DNA of 62,611 bases from Prochlorococcus sp. AG-347-I21 (GTDB taxonomy: Bacteria; Cyanobacteriota; Cyanobacteriia; PCC-6307; Cyanobiaceae): positions 1-62,611 of the forward strand of contig QCBP01000010.1 in assembly GCA_003279055.1 (NCBI GenBank), given 5' to 3'. The notes below the pieces were generated by a model. The model was not told the origin of the DNA, made no database searches, and worked only from the letters and a program-made list of their open reading frames with translations. Shown here in pieces: positions 14,061 to 20,287 of this stretch. The position numbers were made by a program, and so were the translations under genes. How positions within the stretch are numbered: the stretch's first letter is position 1; the number at the start of each line of letters is the position of its first letter.

Positions 14061-14134
14061 GTCTCGGTAGCTCAGCTGGTTAGAGCGGCGGATTCATAGC
14101 CCGCAGGTCGCGTGTTCAAGTCACGCTCGAGACA
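14061..14134 (+). tRNA. tRNA with CAT anticodon (elongator tRNA-Met, or tRNA-Ile2)
   Basis: A 74-base tRNA without encoded CCA. The acceptor arms GTCTCGG and TCGAGAC pair with one G-U; the D-stem is GCTC/GAGC and the T-stem GCGTG/CACGC with a TTCAAGT loop. The anticodon loop is TTCATAG, giving CAT. The base pair next to the loop is an A-C mismatch. The three-G:C anticodon stem and unpaired position 1 of an initiator are absent, so it is not fMet. It could be elongator Met or a lysidine-modified Ile2. Its 3' part is duplicated at 20,243, so it is the target of an integrated element. Confidence 0.93.
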
Positions 14135-14136
14135 TT
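14092..14136 (+). repeat. Left attachment repeat (3' end of tRNA gene)
   Basis: These 45 bases, from the anticodon loop through two bases beyond the acceptor, are identical to 20,243-20,287. This is the classic footprint of site-specific integration into a tRNA 3' end, where the element restores a full tRNA on one side. Confidence 0.93.
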
Positions 14137-14305
14137 ATTTAATAAAGCATTAAAGCATTCATAAGAAACCATATTGCAGGAATAGTTTGTTTACCTATTT
14201 GCTTTGGAGTTGTATGGTTCAACTAAGTTTTTCAATTAGCTATATATGCTGCAATTGATCTTTTTCTTTTAAGAGCGTTAGTTACTTACATAATCAATTA
14301 TTGAT

Positions 14306-14533
14306 TTATTTTTTATATGCAGATCCAACAGGTTGGCAAAGATATTTCTCTAAATGATCAACATGCCATAGGATTGTGCTTCTAGGATTTCTTGCAAACT
14401 TACGGATGTAATGATGACCATAGTTAAGGTATTTCATATGCTTACTTAATGTTCTTCTAGATATTTTTAAGTAATTAGTTATCTCTTCTGTTGTGTACCA
14501 TGGACTATTTTTTTGAGTTGCAACTGTTGTCAT
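14306..14533 (-). CDS. Excisionase-like winged helix-turn-helix protein
   Basis: A 75-aa DNA-binding protein with a MerR/Xis-type helix-turn-helix (YTTEEITNYLKISRRTLSKHM, about residues 13-33) followed by a wing and the RSTILWHVDHLEKYL segment typical of recombination directionality factors. It sits 170 bases from the attachment tRNA and points toward it, the usual place for an excision factor. A plain transcription regulator is the alternative. No integrase partner is found in the island. Confidence 0.72.
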   Translation of the reverse strand: MTTVATQKNSPWYTTEEITNYLKISRRTLSKHMKYLNYGHHYIRKFARNPRSTILWHVDHLEKYLCQPVGSAYKK

Positions 14534-14853
14534 AAATTGGAATAAAAATTAAATGTTTATGAGTGAGTTAATTAAACGGAAAACTCAAACGTTTTTAGTG
14601 CCTTTTTAAGGTGTGATGATTGTGAAAATATGGTCTAAAATTATGGATTATTCTTCTAATATTTCATCGGGATTGTGTCTCATTTTGTGCCTTGGCACGG
14701 TCTCCTTAGACTTCGTTTCCGATACAAATATTATAGCATAATTTAATGGGTATGGCAACACTCAAAACGCAGTCATATCAATGGCTTTAATTTGGTTTTA
14801 TAGCCAGTAATTTATAGGTTTTATATAGTAGATATACAAGTATAAATTTGACA
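14534..14853. other. 320-bp intergenic region left of the first island gene cluster
   Basis: A divergent promoter region between the excisionase-like gene and the plus-strand cluster. It has one weak minus-strand 37-aa frame (listed separately) and a G+C-richer stretch around 14,670-14,730 (GTGCCTTGGCACGG, partly palindromic as TGCCNNGGCA). The palindrome might be a regulator site. Confidence 0.4.
14648..14761 (-). CDS. Possible 37-aa peptide, unknown
   Basis: A frame starting GTG at 14,759-14,761 right after an in-frame stop, ending TAA. The C-terminal half is charged (PRHKMRHNPDEILEE). An AAGGAG sits before a second GTG inside the frame, so a shorter form is possible. It is supported only by composition and by position in an otherwise empty 320-bp gap. 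Confidence 0.28.
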   Translation of the reverse strand: MLPYPLNYAIIFVSETKSKETVPRHKMRHNPDEILEE

Positions 14854-15225
14854 ATGTCTGACGAAAAAGAAAGAGATGAGCAGTGGCACAATAGGACGTC
14901 AGAGTATTACCTTGTAAGCGTCAAACAAAGACTTGAAGTTGAGTTTAGAAACAGTTTAAAGAGAGATAAGAAACGTCATGCTGAACCTAAAGCTCAGAGA
15001 GTAATTCCATTAGGAATACATAATGATGGTGGTGCTGCTGGGTCTTGGGAACTAGCGGAACTTGTCTATTTAGTTAAATTCAGTACTGAAAATTTAGGCT
15101 CCAAATTTCAGAAAGAACTTACAAAATATCAAGAGGATAAATTAACAGAAGAGGAGATCCCAATTCCTGATATAGATGATTTAATAGACGAAAAGGAAAA
15201 TAAGTTTAATGATGGTTGGTGGTAA
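14854..15225 (+). CDS. Island protein of unknown function
   Basis: A 123-aa soluble, charged protein. ATG at 14,854 is chosen over the in-frame TTG six bases earlier. The N-terminal half is basic (EVEFRNSLKRDKKRHAEPK), the middle contains a Gly/Ala-rich NDGGAAGSWELAEL segment, and the tail is acidic (IPDIDDLIDEKENK) and ends in WW. Its stop overlaps the next ATG (TAATG), so the two are probably translated together. No family is recognised. Confidence 0.65.
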   Translation: MSDEKERDEQWHNRTSEYYLVSVKQRLEVEFRNSLKRDKKRHAEPKAQRVIPLGIHNDGGAAGSWELAELVYLVKFSTENLGSKFQKELTKYQEDKLTEEEIPIPDIDDLIDEKENKFNDGWW

Positions 15226-15407
15226 TGAGTATTAAATGGAACGATAAATCTTGGCAGAAAGAGTTCTTGAACATGAAATCTCATTCACCTTCAGACGCAA
15301 AGCTACTAATGGGAGGTGCAAAAGGATTAAAAGATGCTTGGCGTTTGGGTGTTCTTCATGTTGAATACGAAAGAATAAAGAAGATACAAGACCAGCAACA
15401 ACAATGA
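15226..15407 (+). CDS. Small island protein with C-terminal glutamine run
   Basis: A 60-aa protein beginning MSIKWNDKSWQKEFL. It ends in a short Gln run (QDQQQQ) encoded by CAG/CAA codons. Starting inside the stop of the previous gene and overlapping the next ATG by four bases, it is the middle member of a three-gene coupled set. It shares a W-x-KE-x-L...GAK...G...I-[KR]-K pattern with the next gene product, suggesting tandem duplication. Function unknown. Confidence 0.62.
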
Positions 15408-18811: not shown

Positions 18812-18995
18812 CGAAATCATTTTACTCATGCACCATCTTCTCGAGTATCACGATCTTTATGAAAATGACTATGAGTCATTTAGATCAAGATTTGATTTTG
18901 AGATCACATATTGGTATCACTTCCGAAAACTGAATCTAATGATTGATAAACAATTTGAGTCAATTAAACCTTTTACAAACAAAGACAATTACTAA
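18804..18995 (+). CDS. Small island protein, unknown
   Basis: A 63-aa aromatic- and His-rich acidic protein (LLMHHLLEYHDLYENDYESF, ITYWYHFRKL). The ATG at 18,804 gives an 8-base overlap with the preceding gene; an in-frame ATG at 18,792 is possible. The next ATG begins one base after its stop. The tight packing supports translation as part of the block. Confidence 0.52.
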   Translation: MNDEIILLMHHLLEYHDLYENDYESFRSRFDFEITYWYHFRKLNLMIDKQFESIKPFTNKDNY

Positions 18996-18996
18996 A

Positions 18997-19305
18997 ATGC
19001 AAAACTTACCAAGCAAAGAACGACCAAGTACAAAACTCCTAAGAGATTTGTATAAGAATAGAAAAAAGCTAATCGAAATTGAAAGTTCTAACGAACCTTA
19101 CGTTTCAAAAATAAGACCTTTACTTCAAAAGGATTATTGGCTTAGTCATGCTTTAATCAAATTTCTGAATTATGAATACGATTTAGGAATAAAGATTAAA
19201 AACAAAAAAACTGAAAATAAATCTGCAATTGAGAAACTCAAAGAAATGCAGTCTAAATTATCAGAAAATATCAATTGTGAAGAGGAGGAGAAGGATCTGT
19301 TTTGA
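18997..19305 (+). CDS. Small basic island protein, unknown
   Basis: A 102-aa protein. ATG at 18,997 is chosen because the frame upstream overlaps the previous gene. The N-terminus is Pro/Ser/Lys-rich (LPSKERPSTKLLRDLYKNRKK) and the C-terminus is helical and acidic (EKLKEMQSKLSENINCEEEEKDLF). Its stop overlaps the TTG of the next gene by four bases. Confidence 0.58.
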   Translation: MQNLPSKERPSTKLLRDLYKNRKKLIEIESSNEPYVSKIRPLLQKDYWLSHALIKFLNYEYDLGIKIKNKKTENKSAIEKLKEMQSKLSENINCEEEEKDLF

Positions 19306-19784
19306 AGAAATTTATTATTGCTTCATTACTATTCTTTGCACCTGTTACTTATTCAGCTTCCACACCTGATTCGGAAGAGTTAGGTAAAGCTATGAAACTC
19401 GACTGTCAGACTTTAGGTGCTGACAGTTGTACTTCCCGTTTTATTGCAGTTAGTGCTTGCACTTTTTCGTATGGCATAGCTAAAAGTGAAAAGACTGTCA
19501 AAGAAAGTATTGATATCGCTGATGATCTTTTTGTTCTTCTTATGAGAGGAAATGGATTAAATCCCAACTCTATGTTTGACGATCAAAATCTTATAAAAGA
19601 ATCAATCAGATCAGAAACAATCGAAAGAGTTGCTAAGTGCAAGGAATGGACAAAAGAAGCAATTCCCAAAATTGTTCTTGAAAAAACTGGCAAACCAGCA
19701 ACACCAGAATTTATTGAAGGTGCAACTAGGACATTTGGGTTTTGGTGGCTTGGAACTCTTGAACAGATTAAACGAGGAAGGTAA
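19302..19784 (+). CDS. Exported island protein, unknown, last gene of the block
   Basis: A 160-aa protein that begins at TTG inside the stop of the preceding gene (TTGA), with no nearby ATG. Residues 1-18 form a clear signal peptide (KKFIIASLLFFAPVTYSAS). The mature part has four Cys (DCQTLGADSC, SACTF, AKCKEW) that could form disulfides in the periplasm, and ends in a Trp-rich helix (GFWWLGTLEQIKRG). The overall look recalls small secreted helical proteins, but no family is recognised. Export from a coupled block of cytosolic proteins is unusual. Confidence 0.65.
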   Translation: MKKFIIASLLFFAPVTYSASTPDSEELGKAMKLDCQTLGADSCTSRFIAVSACTFSYGIAKSEKTVKESIDIADDLFVLLMRGNGLNPNSMFDDQNLIKESIRSETIERVAKCKEWTKEAIPKIVLEKTGKPATPEFIEGATRTFGFWWLGTLEQIKRGR

Positions 19785-19922
19785 TTACATCATCTCGTAG
19801 CTATCTAATTTAGTTTTTAGCTTTGCTGCTTTATGTATTAATCCAACTGCTTCTTTTCTTCCAGTAGCATTATTAGCTTGGAGTATAAGGTCAGCATATT
19901 TTTTTACAATTTTCTTTCTCAT
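19785..19922 (-). CDS. Small basic protein at the right end of the island
   Basis: A 45-aa frame (MRKKIVKKYADLILQANNATGRKEAVGLIHKAAKLKTKLDSYEMM, given here only by its ends MRKKIVKKY and KLKTKLDSYEMM) with one amphipathic helix pair. It starts at ATG 19,920-19,922 and its stop abuts the convergent exported-protein gene. Plausible small DNA-binding or structural protein; function unknown. Confidence 0.5.
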   Translation of the reverse strand: MRKKIVKKYADLILQANNATGRKEAVGLIHKAAKLKTKLDSYEMM

Positions 19923-20242
19923 AGTTTAGATTAAATGAAGACCGTTTTTAAATCTGCCAGGAGTAGGAGATCTACTGCTTGAGATAAGGAATCAACGGTA
20001 AAACCTCAGAGTAAACAAATTGGAACGGGTTCACTCGTAGGAGTTATTTATAAACGATCAATTAGATATTTGTAGGTATTTATTACTACATTGTTTTTAA
20101 ATACAGACAATTTTTTTTTCTTCCCAAAATATATTATGATCAGTGGGAAATAGTGTGCAATTTAAATTATTAATAGGTAAACTACGGGTACACAACATGA
20201 AATAAGTGCTGGTATCACTATACTCTCAAGATTGAAGCTGGT
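19923..20242. other. Non-coding right end of island
   Basis: About 320 bases with no frame longer than 15 codons that begins with a good start. The final bases before the right repeat read GAAGCTGGT and then ATTCATAG, which looks like the tRNA D-arm (CAGCTGGT) joined to the anticodon loop with 11 bases missing. The right tRNA remnant may therefore be longer than 45 bases but degenerate. Confidence 0.5.
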
Positions 20243-20287
20243 ATTCATAGCCCGCAGGTCGCGTGTTCAAGTCACGCTCGAGACATT
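20243..20287 (+). repeat. Right attachment repeat (duplicate tRNA 3' end)
   Basis: Identical over 45 bases to 14,092-14,136: half of the anticodon arm, the variable loop, T-arm, acceptor strand and two flanking bases. The 5' half of the tRNA is missing, so this copy cannot make a tRNA. Confidence 0.93.

Follow-up and report, generated by a model that had tools for sequence, protein, structure and literature searches.

A tRNA-Met-bounded island in Prochlorococcus, probably a derivative of a tycheposon-type element that has lost its integrase

The window analysed here is a stretch of 62,611 nucleotides from Prochlorococcus sp. AG-347-I21, within which an island follows a tRNA-Met gene. Relatives are given as numbered genomes (G) and loci (L), and the second tRNA-Met gene is called tRNA-Met#2. 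The features are as follows:

14060–14135, + strand: tRNA-Met(CAT), the target gene, whole and presumably functional (ARAGORN; Rfam tRNA at 14061–14134)
14092–14136, + strand: left 45-bp direct repeat (attL side), from the anticodon loop (boundary common to the right ends of G000, G200 and G031)
14137–14305: spacer from tRNA to xis, near which an integrase gene would be expected (complete elements have the integrase adjoining xis)
14306–14533, − strand: open excisionase-like helix-turn-helix (HTH) gene, xis, 75 aa, beside the tRNA (Pfam, NCBIfam, homologues)
14534–14848: conserved segment adjoining xis, common to elements at both tRNA-Met genes
14848–15225, + strand: ORF of 125 aa, without Pfam match (ORF list, Pfam)
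15216–15407, + strand: ORF of 63 aa (ORF list, DNA comparison)
15404–15568, + strand: ORF of 54 aa, cargo (ORF list, comparison with related loci)
15626–16018, + strand: antibiotic biosynthesis monooxygenase (ABM) domain protein, 130 aa (Pfam, E 8e-13)
16255–16440, − strand: ORF of 61 aa, cargo (identical protein in the tRNA-Met#2 element of G200)
16657–16809, + strand: C-terminal remnant of a MarR-type regulator (whole in G016)
16809–17006, + strand: ORF of 65 aa, cargo, accompanying clpS in other elements (84% in G110)
17009–17305, + strand: ClpS adaptor encoded as cargo (93.9% identity to ClpS of the integrase-bearing element in G110)
17311–17568, + strand: DUF1651-like ORF, 85 aa (Pfam, below cut-off)
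17733–18395, + strand: ORF of 220 aa, function unassigned, opening a five-gene run shared with G207 (locus comparison)
18401–18811, + strand: ORF of 136 aa, same run (44% to G207)
18792–18995, + strand: ORF of 67 aa, same run (locus comparison)
18943–19305, + strand: ORF of up to 120 aa, same run (assigned by position only)
19302–19784, + strand: ORF of 160 aa, with an N-terminus that looks signal-like by eye (relatives in G207, G016, G110 and G210)
19785–20103: right-end module, a 45-aa ORF (− strand) plus ~180 bp (locus comparison)
20104–20242: right-end flank, similar to the right end of G031
20243–20287, + strand: right 45-bp direct repeat (attR), same as the tRNA 3' end (sequence identity)

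The repeats at 14092–14136 and 20243–20287 are 100% identical (45/45), with a chance expectation of ~1e-15; a tRNA query of the genome itself returned only these two copies at E <= 0.001. Both island ends map to the anticodon loop, and the right boundary, ATTCATAG, is common to G000, G200 and G031. When 266 congeneric genomes were searched for natural empty sites, 148 of the 150 matches listed (counted by eye) ran uninterrupted through the site. Since these relatives run straight through, 14137–20287 is a genuine insertion of ~6 kb in the Prochlorococcus genome. The initial annotation was thus correct in describing a perfect repeat of the tRNA 3' end, the empty site it proposed to look for is present and exact, and the tRNA–clpS junction was named correctly: ClpS genes lie inside (17009–17305) and outside (20355–20642) the island. 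Its further suggestion of recent or still-selected integration gains a little from the absence of any change in 45 bp; however, zero changes also permit divergence of up to ~6.6%, so that on sequence grounds the unmutated repeat would constrain the age of the island only loosely. The outer clpS region (20288 to ~22430) was considered as a possible older insertion, and no third att copy above chance was found within 20290–26000. A search for arm-type sites gave one 11-bp inverted match shared by the island ends, equal to two overlapping 10-mers, which may be chance.

The gene beside the tRNA had been called excisionase-like from the letters alone, and this held up: the open frame at 14306–14533 (− strand) matches Pfam HTH_17 (E 8.9e-5) and the NCBIfam 'excise' model (E 0.0012), both below curated cut-offs, and its product is 33–41% identical to small HTH genes adjoining the integrases of complete elements. 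Its homologues are broken in G016, G100, G118, G200 and G066. The neighbouring DNA (14484–14848) is 88.5% identical to locus L155 of G200. At the opposite end, in 12 of the 29 loci examined, the module at 19785–20103 precedes the repeat of the tRNA 3' end by 202–295 bp; its sequence is dispersed, 220/266 genomes having some match. The adjacent flank is 74% identical to the right end of G031 over 105 bp, or 80.7% over 150 bp with the repeat included.

Between these ends, DNA at 15235–15579 and 16023–16658 (637 bp) is, respectively, 95.1% and 97.2% identical to the tRNA-Met#2 element of G200. Core windows of G200 average 91.5% identity, and the higher cargo value points to horizontal transfer; this is suggestive only, because 2 of 157 overlapping core windows (a few of them counted twice) also reach at least 97%. 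The 220-aa protein was found in a genome scan only in Prochlorococcus sp. AG-347-E03, and its model, built from a two-sequence alignment, was poor (mean pLDDT 42.3). The cargo had been described as unfamiliar, which is partly wrong, as much of it recurs in integrase-bearing elements at tRNA-Met#2. A role in defence was considered and set aside, PADLOC giving just a weak HTH match to xis (E 0.0028).

A tyrosine or serine recombinase hidden in the island was rejected by tblastn, a Pfam scan of the ORFs and a purpose-built HMM of the integrase family described below. The tblastn queries, one serine recombinase and 11 tyrosine recombinases (whole or as fragments), gave at best E 0.033 over 36 residues, and the HMM found nothing at E <= 0.01 in any of the six frames. 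The same HMM detects the G110 integrase and the decayed integrases of G118, G100 and G016 but misses those of G105 and G010, which have decayed further, so that a remnant of great age might go unseen. With that exception, the earlier statement that the island holds no recombinase is borne out. No transfer gene was seen among 20 island ORFs (Pfam) or 10 (PHROGs, every match E 0.0045 or worse). A phage satellite of PICI/PICMI type was likewise dismissed: there was no integrase, packaging or replication gene above weak scores (Pfam, PHROGs, PADLOC) and no phage-record match. The 169-bp spacer had no homologue among the compared loci, with no match starting before 14290. With no integrase trace and no spacer homologue found, no scar was seen, and an integrase deletion is inferred from relatives.

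Those relatives are found at both tRNA-Met genes. At tRNA-Met#2 of G110, G150 and G200, the tRNA is followed by an integrase (449 aa) and then by xis on the opposite strand; in G110 the element continues with cargo, the right-end module and a tRNA 3' repeat, and the order of the island is that of the G110 element minus the integrase. The xis, cargo and right-end module of the island all have relatives in such integrase-bearing, tycheposon-type elements. At the window's own tRNA-Met, six copies of the same integrase family were found in the 266 congeneric genomes (G016, G118, G100, G105, G010 and G015), all decayed or truncated; G184 holds a further family integrase (418 aa) with no tRNA within its locus. 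In genus g10 (L182, L183 and L186), family integrases of 436–458 aa lie beside a tRNA-Met that is 62/75 identical.

Judged by sequence, elements stripped in a comparable way are present in related genomes. Integrase-less islands lie at the window's tRNA-Met in G200 and G066 (a second repeat was not seen in G066) and at tRNA-Met#2 in G210, with 45/45 repeats, G068 and G084; those at tRNA-Met#2 have diverged about as much as the flanking core. The alignment of the G210 island with the complete element of G110 starts 29 bp into the compared stretch and 6.3 kb inside the G110 element, and runs at 95–98% identity with one 2.2-kb part inverted; the two are more than one deletion apart. Three relatives with integrase remnants at the window's tRNA (G016, G100 and G118) show another layout: a decayed outer tRNA, integrase, a second full tRNA-Met and xis. 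Alignments of the outer tRNA to A-type, B-type and hybrid sequences favour none of these. Cargo fragments directly follow the same tRNA, without xis, in G106, where a second repeat was not seen, and in G143 and G116, whose contigs end within 1 kb, placing the far ends beyond view.

The integrase family can be assigned to the tyrosine recombinases by its predicted fold (Foldseek matches to TelA, lambda integrase and XerA, E 3.7e-5 to 6.5e-4, at probability 1.00 and TM-scores of only 0.25–0.42) and by conserved residues that fit a tyrosine recombinase. The members tested were not recognized by Pfam, PHROGs or PDB sequences, so the naming rests on fold and motif, and a missing Pfam match is no evidence of absence here. 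The genome itself (96.84% complete) has five PF00589 matches. One, L003, lies between hemH-like and cobO-like genes (by eye) and is widely conserved, being matched at E <= 1e-10 in 99/111 genomes of the family (weakly in three). Of the others, one adjoins tRNA-Pro, another is close to tRNA-Phe, and for the remaining two the 14–18 kb read around each contains no tRNA. None of these proteins was among the matches listed at E <= 1e-8 for the tRNA-Met integrase fragment. The family profile retrieved L003 (E 5.5e-26; 25–29% identity to the tRNA-Met integrases over 205–246 residues) and the tRNA-Pro gene (L007, E 1.1e-7) as distant relatives. A search of the rest of the genome, as the initial annotation had proposed, thus gave only distant relatives of the tRNA-Met integrases, none tied to the window's tRNA.

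We consider that 14137–20287 is probably a derivative, resembling a cis-mobilizable element (CIME), of a tycheposon-type element at tRNA-Met whose integrase was deleted, whilst both att sites, xis, the right-end module and cargo stayed in place. A tyrosine recombinase of the same family as in the related elements would have carried out the original integration, with a presumed crossover in the anticodon loop that rebuilt the 3' half of the tRNA. Deletion would then have removed the tRNA-adjacent integrase module, as the relatives suggest; G210, set against the complete element of G110, resembles the end product of such a loss. A G110-like layout losing its integrase is not the sole path, given the different layout in the three relatives with integrase remnants. 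The island would presumably be unable to excise alone, and excision or co-transport might follow the arrival of an integrase with matching specificity, either in trans or by tandem integration.

The perfect repeat, together with an xis that is open here and broken in five relatives, would also fit an active element driven by a helper. This was the proposal of the initial annotation: a satellite for which another element regularly supplies the integrase in trans, its own Xis setting direction. It would also be in keeping with several integrase-less islands that have repeats (G210 again with 45/45), the 97% identity of cargo to an element at the other tRNA where core windows average 91.5%, and the presence in genus g10 of family integrases next to a similar tRNA-Met. 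Nevertheless, we regard it as unlikely. The genome has only distant relatives of the family; the six copies found at the window's tRNA are decayed or truncated and the further 418-aa copy, that of G184, lies in a locus without a tRNA; and the integrase-less islands at tRNA-Met#2 have diverged about like the flanking core, as expected of inherited remnants. Moreover, xis, the 220-aa protein and the island DNA were unmatched in 50,697 phage records, and six scans of viral contigs, based on short exact patterns, yielded no more than a single weak match of 14 residues to xis.

The conserved chromosomal recombinase L003 might instead serve integrase-less elements in trans, being both widespread in the family and related to the tRNA-Met integrases. 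Nothing ties this gene to the window's tRNA, though, and so conserved a gene may act in chromosome dimer resolution or in another process, making this very improbable. Alternatively, no integrase may ever have stood at this site, tycheposon cargo having been brought in by homologous recombination or left after a tandem integrase-bearing element excised. The cargo fragments that directly follow the same tRNA in G106, G143 and G116, the mosaic matches to several elements and the dispersal of the right-end module are consistent with this history, but site-specific integration leaves just such a pair of exact repeats, with xis close to the tRNA and the customary right end, and we think an origin without an integrase at this site quite unlikely. 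Broader still is the speculative idea, to which we give a low probability, that integrase-less elements form a standing class at both Prochlorococcus tRNA-Met genes, keeping their att sites (and here also Xis) and spread by the integrases of other elements, the integrase then being a public good much as for CALINs and MITEs.

Elements anchored at tRNA genes are believed to carry much of the gene exchange in Prochlorococcus. If derivatives such as the loss of the integrase would produce prove common at both tRNA-Met genes, they are overlooked by integrase-based surveys, and the unchanged att sites and open xis would make movement of cargo without an integrase of its own testable.

Tycheposons of Prochlorococcus are reportedly the subject of Hackl et al. 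2023. PMC10872708 and PMC10187409 cite that work, and the former places tRNA-Met among seven target tRNAs and gives a size range of 4–200 kb. The resemblance to tycheposons noted at the outset is upheld: the island is bounded by a tRNA in Prochlorococcus, ends in a partial copy of that tRNA, carries cargo, and has its xis, right end and cargo in common with congeneric elements that bear a recombinase. Those at tRNA-Met#2 carry a divergent tyrosine recombinase, in a comparison among the integrases of the elements themselves. The difference is that no tyrosine recombinase, the hallmark of tycheposons, was found in the island, whereas remnants stand at the same tRNA in other genomes. CIMEs, as defined in PMC5704250, are regarded as decay products of integrase-bearing elements; the island appears similar in keeping attL and attR (45/45 by sequence) with no integration or transfer genes found, but known CIMEs come from conjugative or mobilizable elements, and the island retains Xis. 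At Dehalococcoides ssrA, 15 islands without integration modules, beside islands having them, were proposed as CIMEs (PMC3146451); module-less islands at one RNA gene are the likeness, and the difference lies in serine recombinases and ssrA there versus the tyrosine family and tRNA-Met here. CALINs and MITEs are also integrase-less derivatives of mobile DNA, thought to arise by gene loss and possibly moved in trans (PMC11389934); they differ in belonging to other recombination systems, and by analogy the island, too, might be mobilized in trans.

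The last 45 bp of the window's tRNA-Met(CAT) gene (14060-14135), starting at the anticodon loop, recur as an identical second copy at 20243-20287, and these two copies were the only matches of the tRNA query across the AG-347-I21 genome (1.56 Mb in 40 contigs, the window being contig C10; completeness 96.84%). In many relatives, the tRNA is joined directly to the sequence that begins here at 20288 and to the clpS gene (20355-20642). With the natural empty site of the congeneric genome G108 as the query, matches were found in 212 of the 266 congeneric genomes searched; of the 150 rows printed, 148 (counted by eye) ran uninterrupted across the junction. 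The two that did not were the right half of the AG-347-I21 site itself and G071, whose contig starts inside the repeat. The segment after the tRNA is an insertion with ends of the site-specific type. The initial annotation had proposed a tRNA-bounded insertion with perfect 45-bp ends and had named the lack of any empty site as grounds against its satellite idea; since relatives carry the empty site, that objection does not apply. The island and its right flank contain the following features.

14306-14533, minus strand: excisionase-like small HTH gene (xis), open frame
17009-17305: ClpS gene inside the island
20355-20642: ClpS gene just outside the island, 3.3 kb from the first
17733-19784: five-gene run of cargo, four of the five genes matched in an island of congeneric genome G207
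19785-20103: right-end module, which includes an ORF of 45 aa, 140 bp before the window's repeat; the same module is in the G110 element

No recombinase was found in the island by Pfam over 20 ORFs, by tblastn with one serine recombinase and 11 whole or partial tyrosine recombinases, or by a profile of nine full-length integrases in all six frames. This bears out the initial annotation within the reach of the profile, which in control searches detected the G110 copy and the decayed or truncated copies of G118, G100 and G016 but missed the more decayed ones of G105 and G010. The excisionase-like gene reported beside the tRNA is open here, and shares 33-41% identity with the HTH genes adjoining the integrases of G110, G150 and G200; at the same tRNA in G016, G100, G118, G200 and G066, its homologues are broken by stops or frameshifts. 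A conserved segment beside it (14534-14848), common to elements at both tRNA-Met genes, had no Rfam match at the gathering threshold and is possibly a regulatory segment or an RNA.

The island is kin to elements that do carry an integrase. An integrase fragment beside the window's tRNA in G016, used as the query, matched 20 of the 266 congeneric genomes (E <= 1e-8). In 11 of these, the integrase is an open frame of 429-464 aa adjoining a second tRNA-Met gene (tRNA-Met#2), where those of G021 and G249 are short or broken; six sit at the window's tRNA, and G184 has a 418-aa frame at a locus without a tRNA. The integrases of G110, G150 and G200 are followed by xis on the opposite strand. The complete G110 element, of 14.7 kb, consists of the tRNA, integrase, xis, cargo, right-end module and a tRNA 3' repeat (37/45). 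In the window, tRNA-Met#2 (61703-61779), is the target of integrase-bearing elements in relatives; no adjoining element was seen in the remaining 832 bp of the contig.

The integrases tested from these elements (about 449 aa; L108:604-1953 and relatives) were not recognised by Pfam, PHROGs or a PDB sequence search. The predicted structure (mean pLDDT 76.8, pTM 0.55) gave TelA, lambda integrase and XerA as best matches, with low TM-scores, and there is distant sequence similarity to the AG-347-I21 locus L003, which passes the PF00589 cut-off. Conserved among the integrases are R249, K282, R389, H390, H416 and Y425, which we take to be the tyrosine recombinase catalytic set; the predicted fold and these residues fit a tyrosine recombinase.

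At the window's tRNA, the integrases found across the 266 genomes are wrecks only (G016, G118, G100, G105, G010 and G015), that of G016 being the C-terminal third. In G016, G100 and G118, the order is a broken, decayed original tRNA, the integrase remnant, a whole but different tRNA-Met (64/75 identical in G016) and xis. This order suggests that the host tRNA gene has been replaced by the element. The original tRNA-Met is split and decayed in the corresponding loci (L078:1990-2640, L079 and L080:10880-12600). In g10, a different genus of this family (loci L182, L183 and L186), integrases of 436-458 aa lie directly after a tRNA-Met which, being 62/75 identical to the window's, is probably related to it. 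An 11-kb stretch of G031 (L081:1-11260), whose left end lies beyond the contig, ends in the same tRNA 3' repeat as the island in the window and has genes resembling, by eye, MurA and MreB.

The integrase-less state recurs. At the window's tRNA, the G200 island spans 2.66 kb, its xis is broken and its right repeat matches at 82%; G066 has the tRNA, a broken xis and clpS, with no second repeat seen; and in G106, G143 and G116 cargo adjoins the tRNA, the contigs of the latter two stopping within 1 kb. At tRNA-Met#2, islands of 7.7 kb (G084), 6.4 kb (G068) and 10.5 kb (G210) have repeats of 38/45, 39/45 and 45/45, and profiles found no integrase or xis in them. From 29 bp into the compared stretch, the G210 island is DNA found 6.3 kb inside the complete G110 element. 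The two share blocks of 4.6, 2.2 and 1.5 kb at 96.9, 95.0 and 98.0%, the 2.2-kb block being inverted; G210 lacks the tRNA-proximal part of G110 (integrase and xis), and there are further differences. The integrase-less islands at tRNA-Met#2 and their flanks were about equally diverged, a pattern more in keeping with inheritance than with fresh transfer.

Some match to the right-end module occurs in 220 of the 266 congeneric genomes, and on AG-347-I21 contig C18. Among 29 loci with good matches, 12 have the 3' half of tRNA-Met#2 202-295 bp downstream (33-43 of 45 bases); the remaining 17, three of them shortened by contig ends, gave 17-23 of 45, and shuffled sequence 18-21.

A 61-aa island protein is identical in the integrase-bearing element of G200 at tRNA-Met#2, and 16023-16658 is 97.2% identical to that element; the AG-347-I21 and G200 cores average 91.5% over 157 overlapping windows, two of which reach at least 97%. 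These identities suggest recent exchange of cargo with the G200 element. As for the recent integration proposed initially, the repeat is unchanged, but because 45 unchanged bp are compatible with up to about 6.6% divergence (5% level), recency follows only weakly. A MarR-type gene retains only its C-terminal end, so the island is not pristine. A relative of the 220-aa island protein lies on contig C1 of G207. The 300 bp surrounding the two ClpS genes are 77% identical; ClpS is also cargo in the G110 and G210 elements.

Integration would have been through the anticodon loop by a tyrosine recombinase of the tRNA-Met-element family, whose gene was then presumably lost by deletion to leave a CIME-like island. 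Less probably, the island is a satellite, as first proposed, that would require an integrase of matching specificity from a helper, perhaps a transient one. The AG-347-I21 genome is incomplete; it had no match to the G016 integrase fragment at E <= 1e-8. The recombinase sought elsewhere in it was found only as distant relatives of the tRNA-Met integrases, L003 and L007 (profile E 5.5e-26 and 1.1e-7), which are among five PF00589 matches; L007 is near tRNA-Pro, L006, which has a small serine recombinase as its neighbour, is near tRNA-Phe, and two have no tRNA nearby. The L003 tyrosine recombinase (835-2004, contig C4) is widely conserved: 99 of the 111 genomes in the family have a match to it, three of them a weak one, counting sequence matches irrespective of synteny. 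Three serine recombinases are listed for the genome. On its 6.6-kb contig C27 (L160), which also has a tRNA-Phe, an integrase adjoins a small serine recombinase, as in the picocyanobacterial element of PMC10187409.

We do not class the island as a strict tycheposon because searches for a recombinase in it found none, a distinction drawn independently of the published reference clade. Integrase-less tycheposons had no account in the accessible parts of PMC10872708, PMC10187409, PMC5704250, PMC3146451, PMC12416821, PMC11389934 and PMC10803314, which carries little weight since the main tycheposon paper lies outside that coverage. Judged from its sequence, the island would derive from a tycheposon-type element and work as a CIME does. 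According to PMC5704250, a CIME is an element whose integration and transfer genes are lost and whose attL and attR are kept; likewise, the att repeats are kept here and no integrase was found. The ssrA islands of Dehalococcoides, without integration modules like the island in the window, are given the same CIME reading in PMC3146451.
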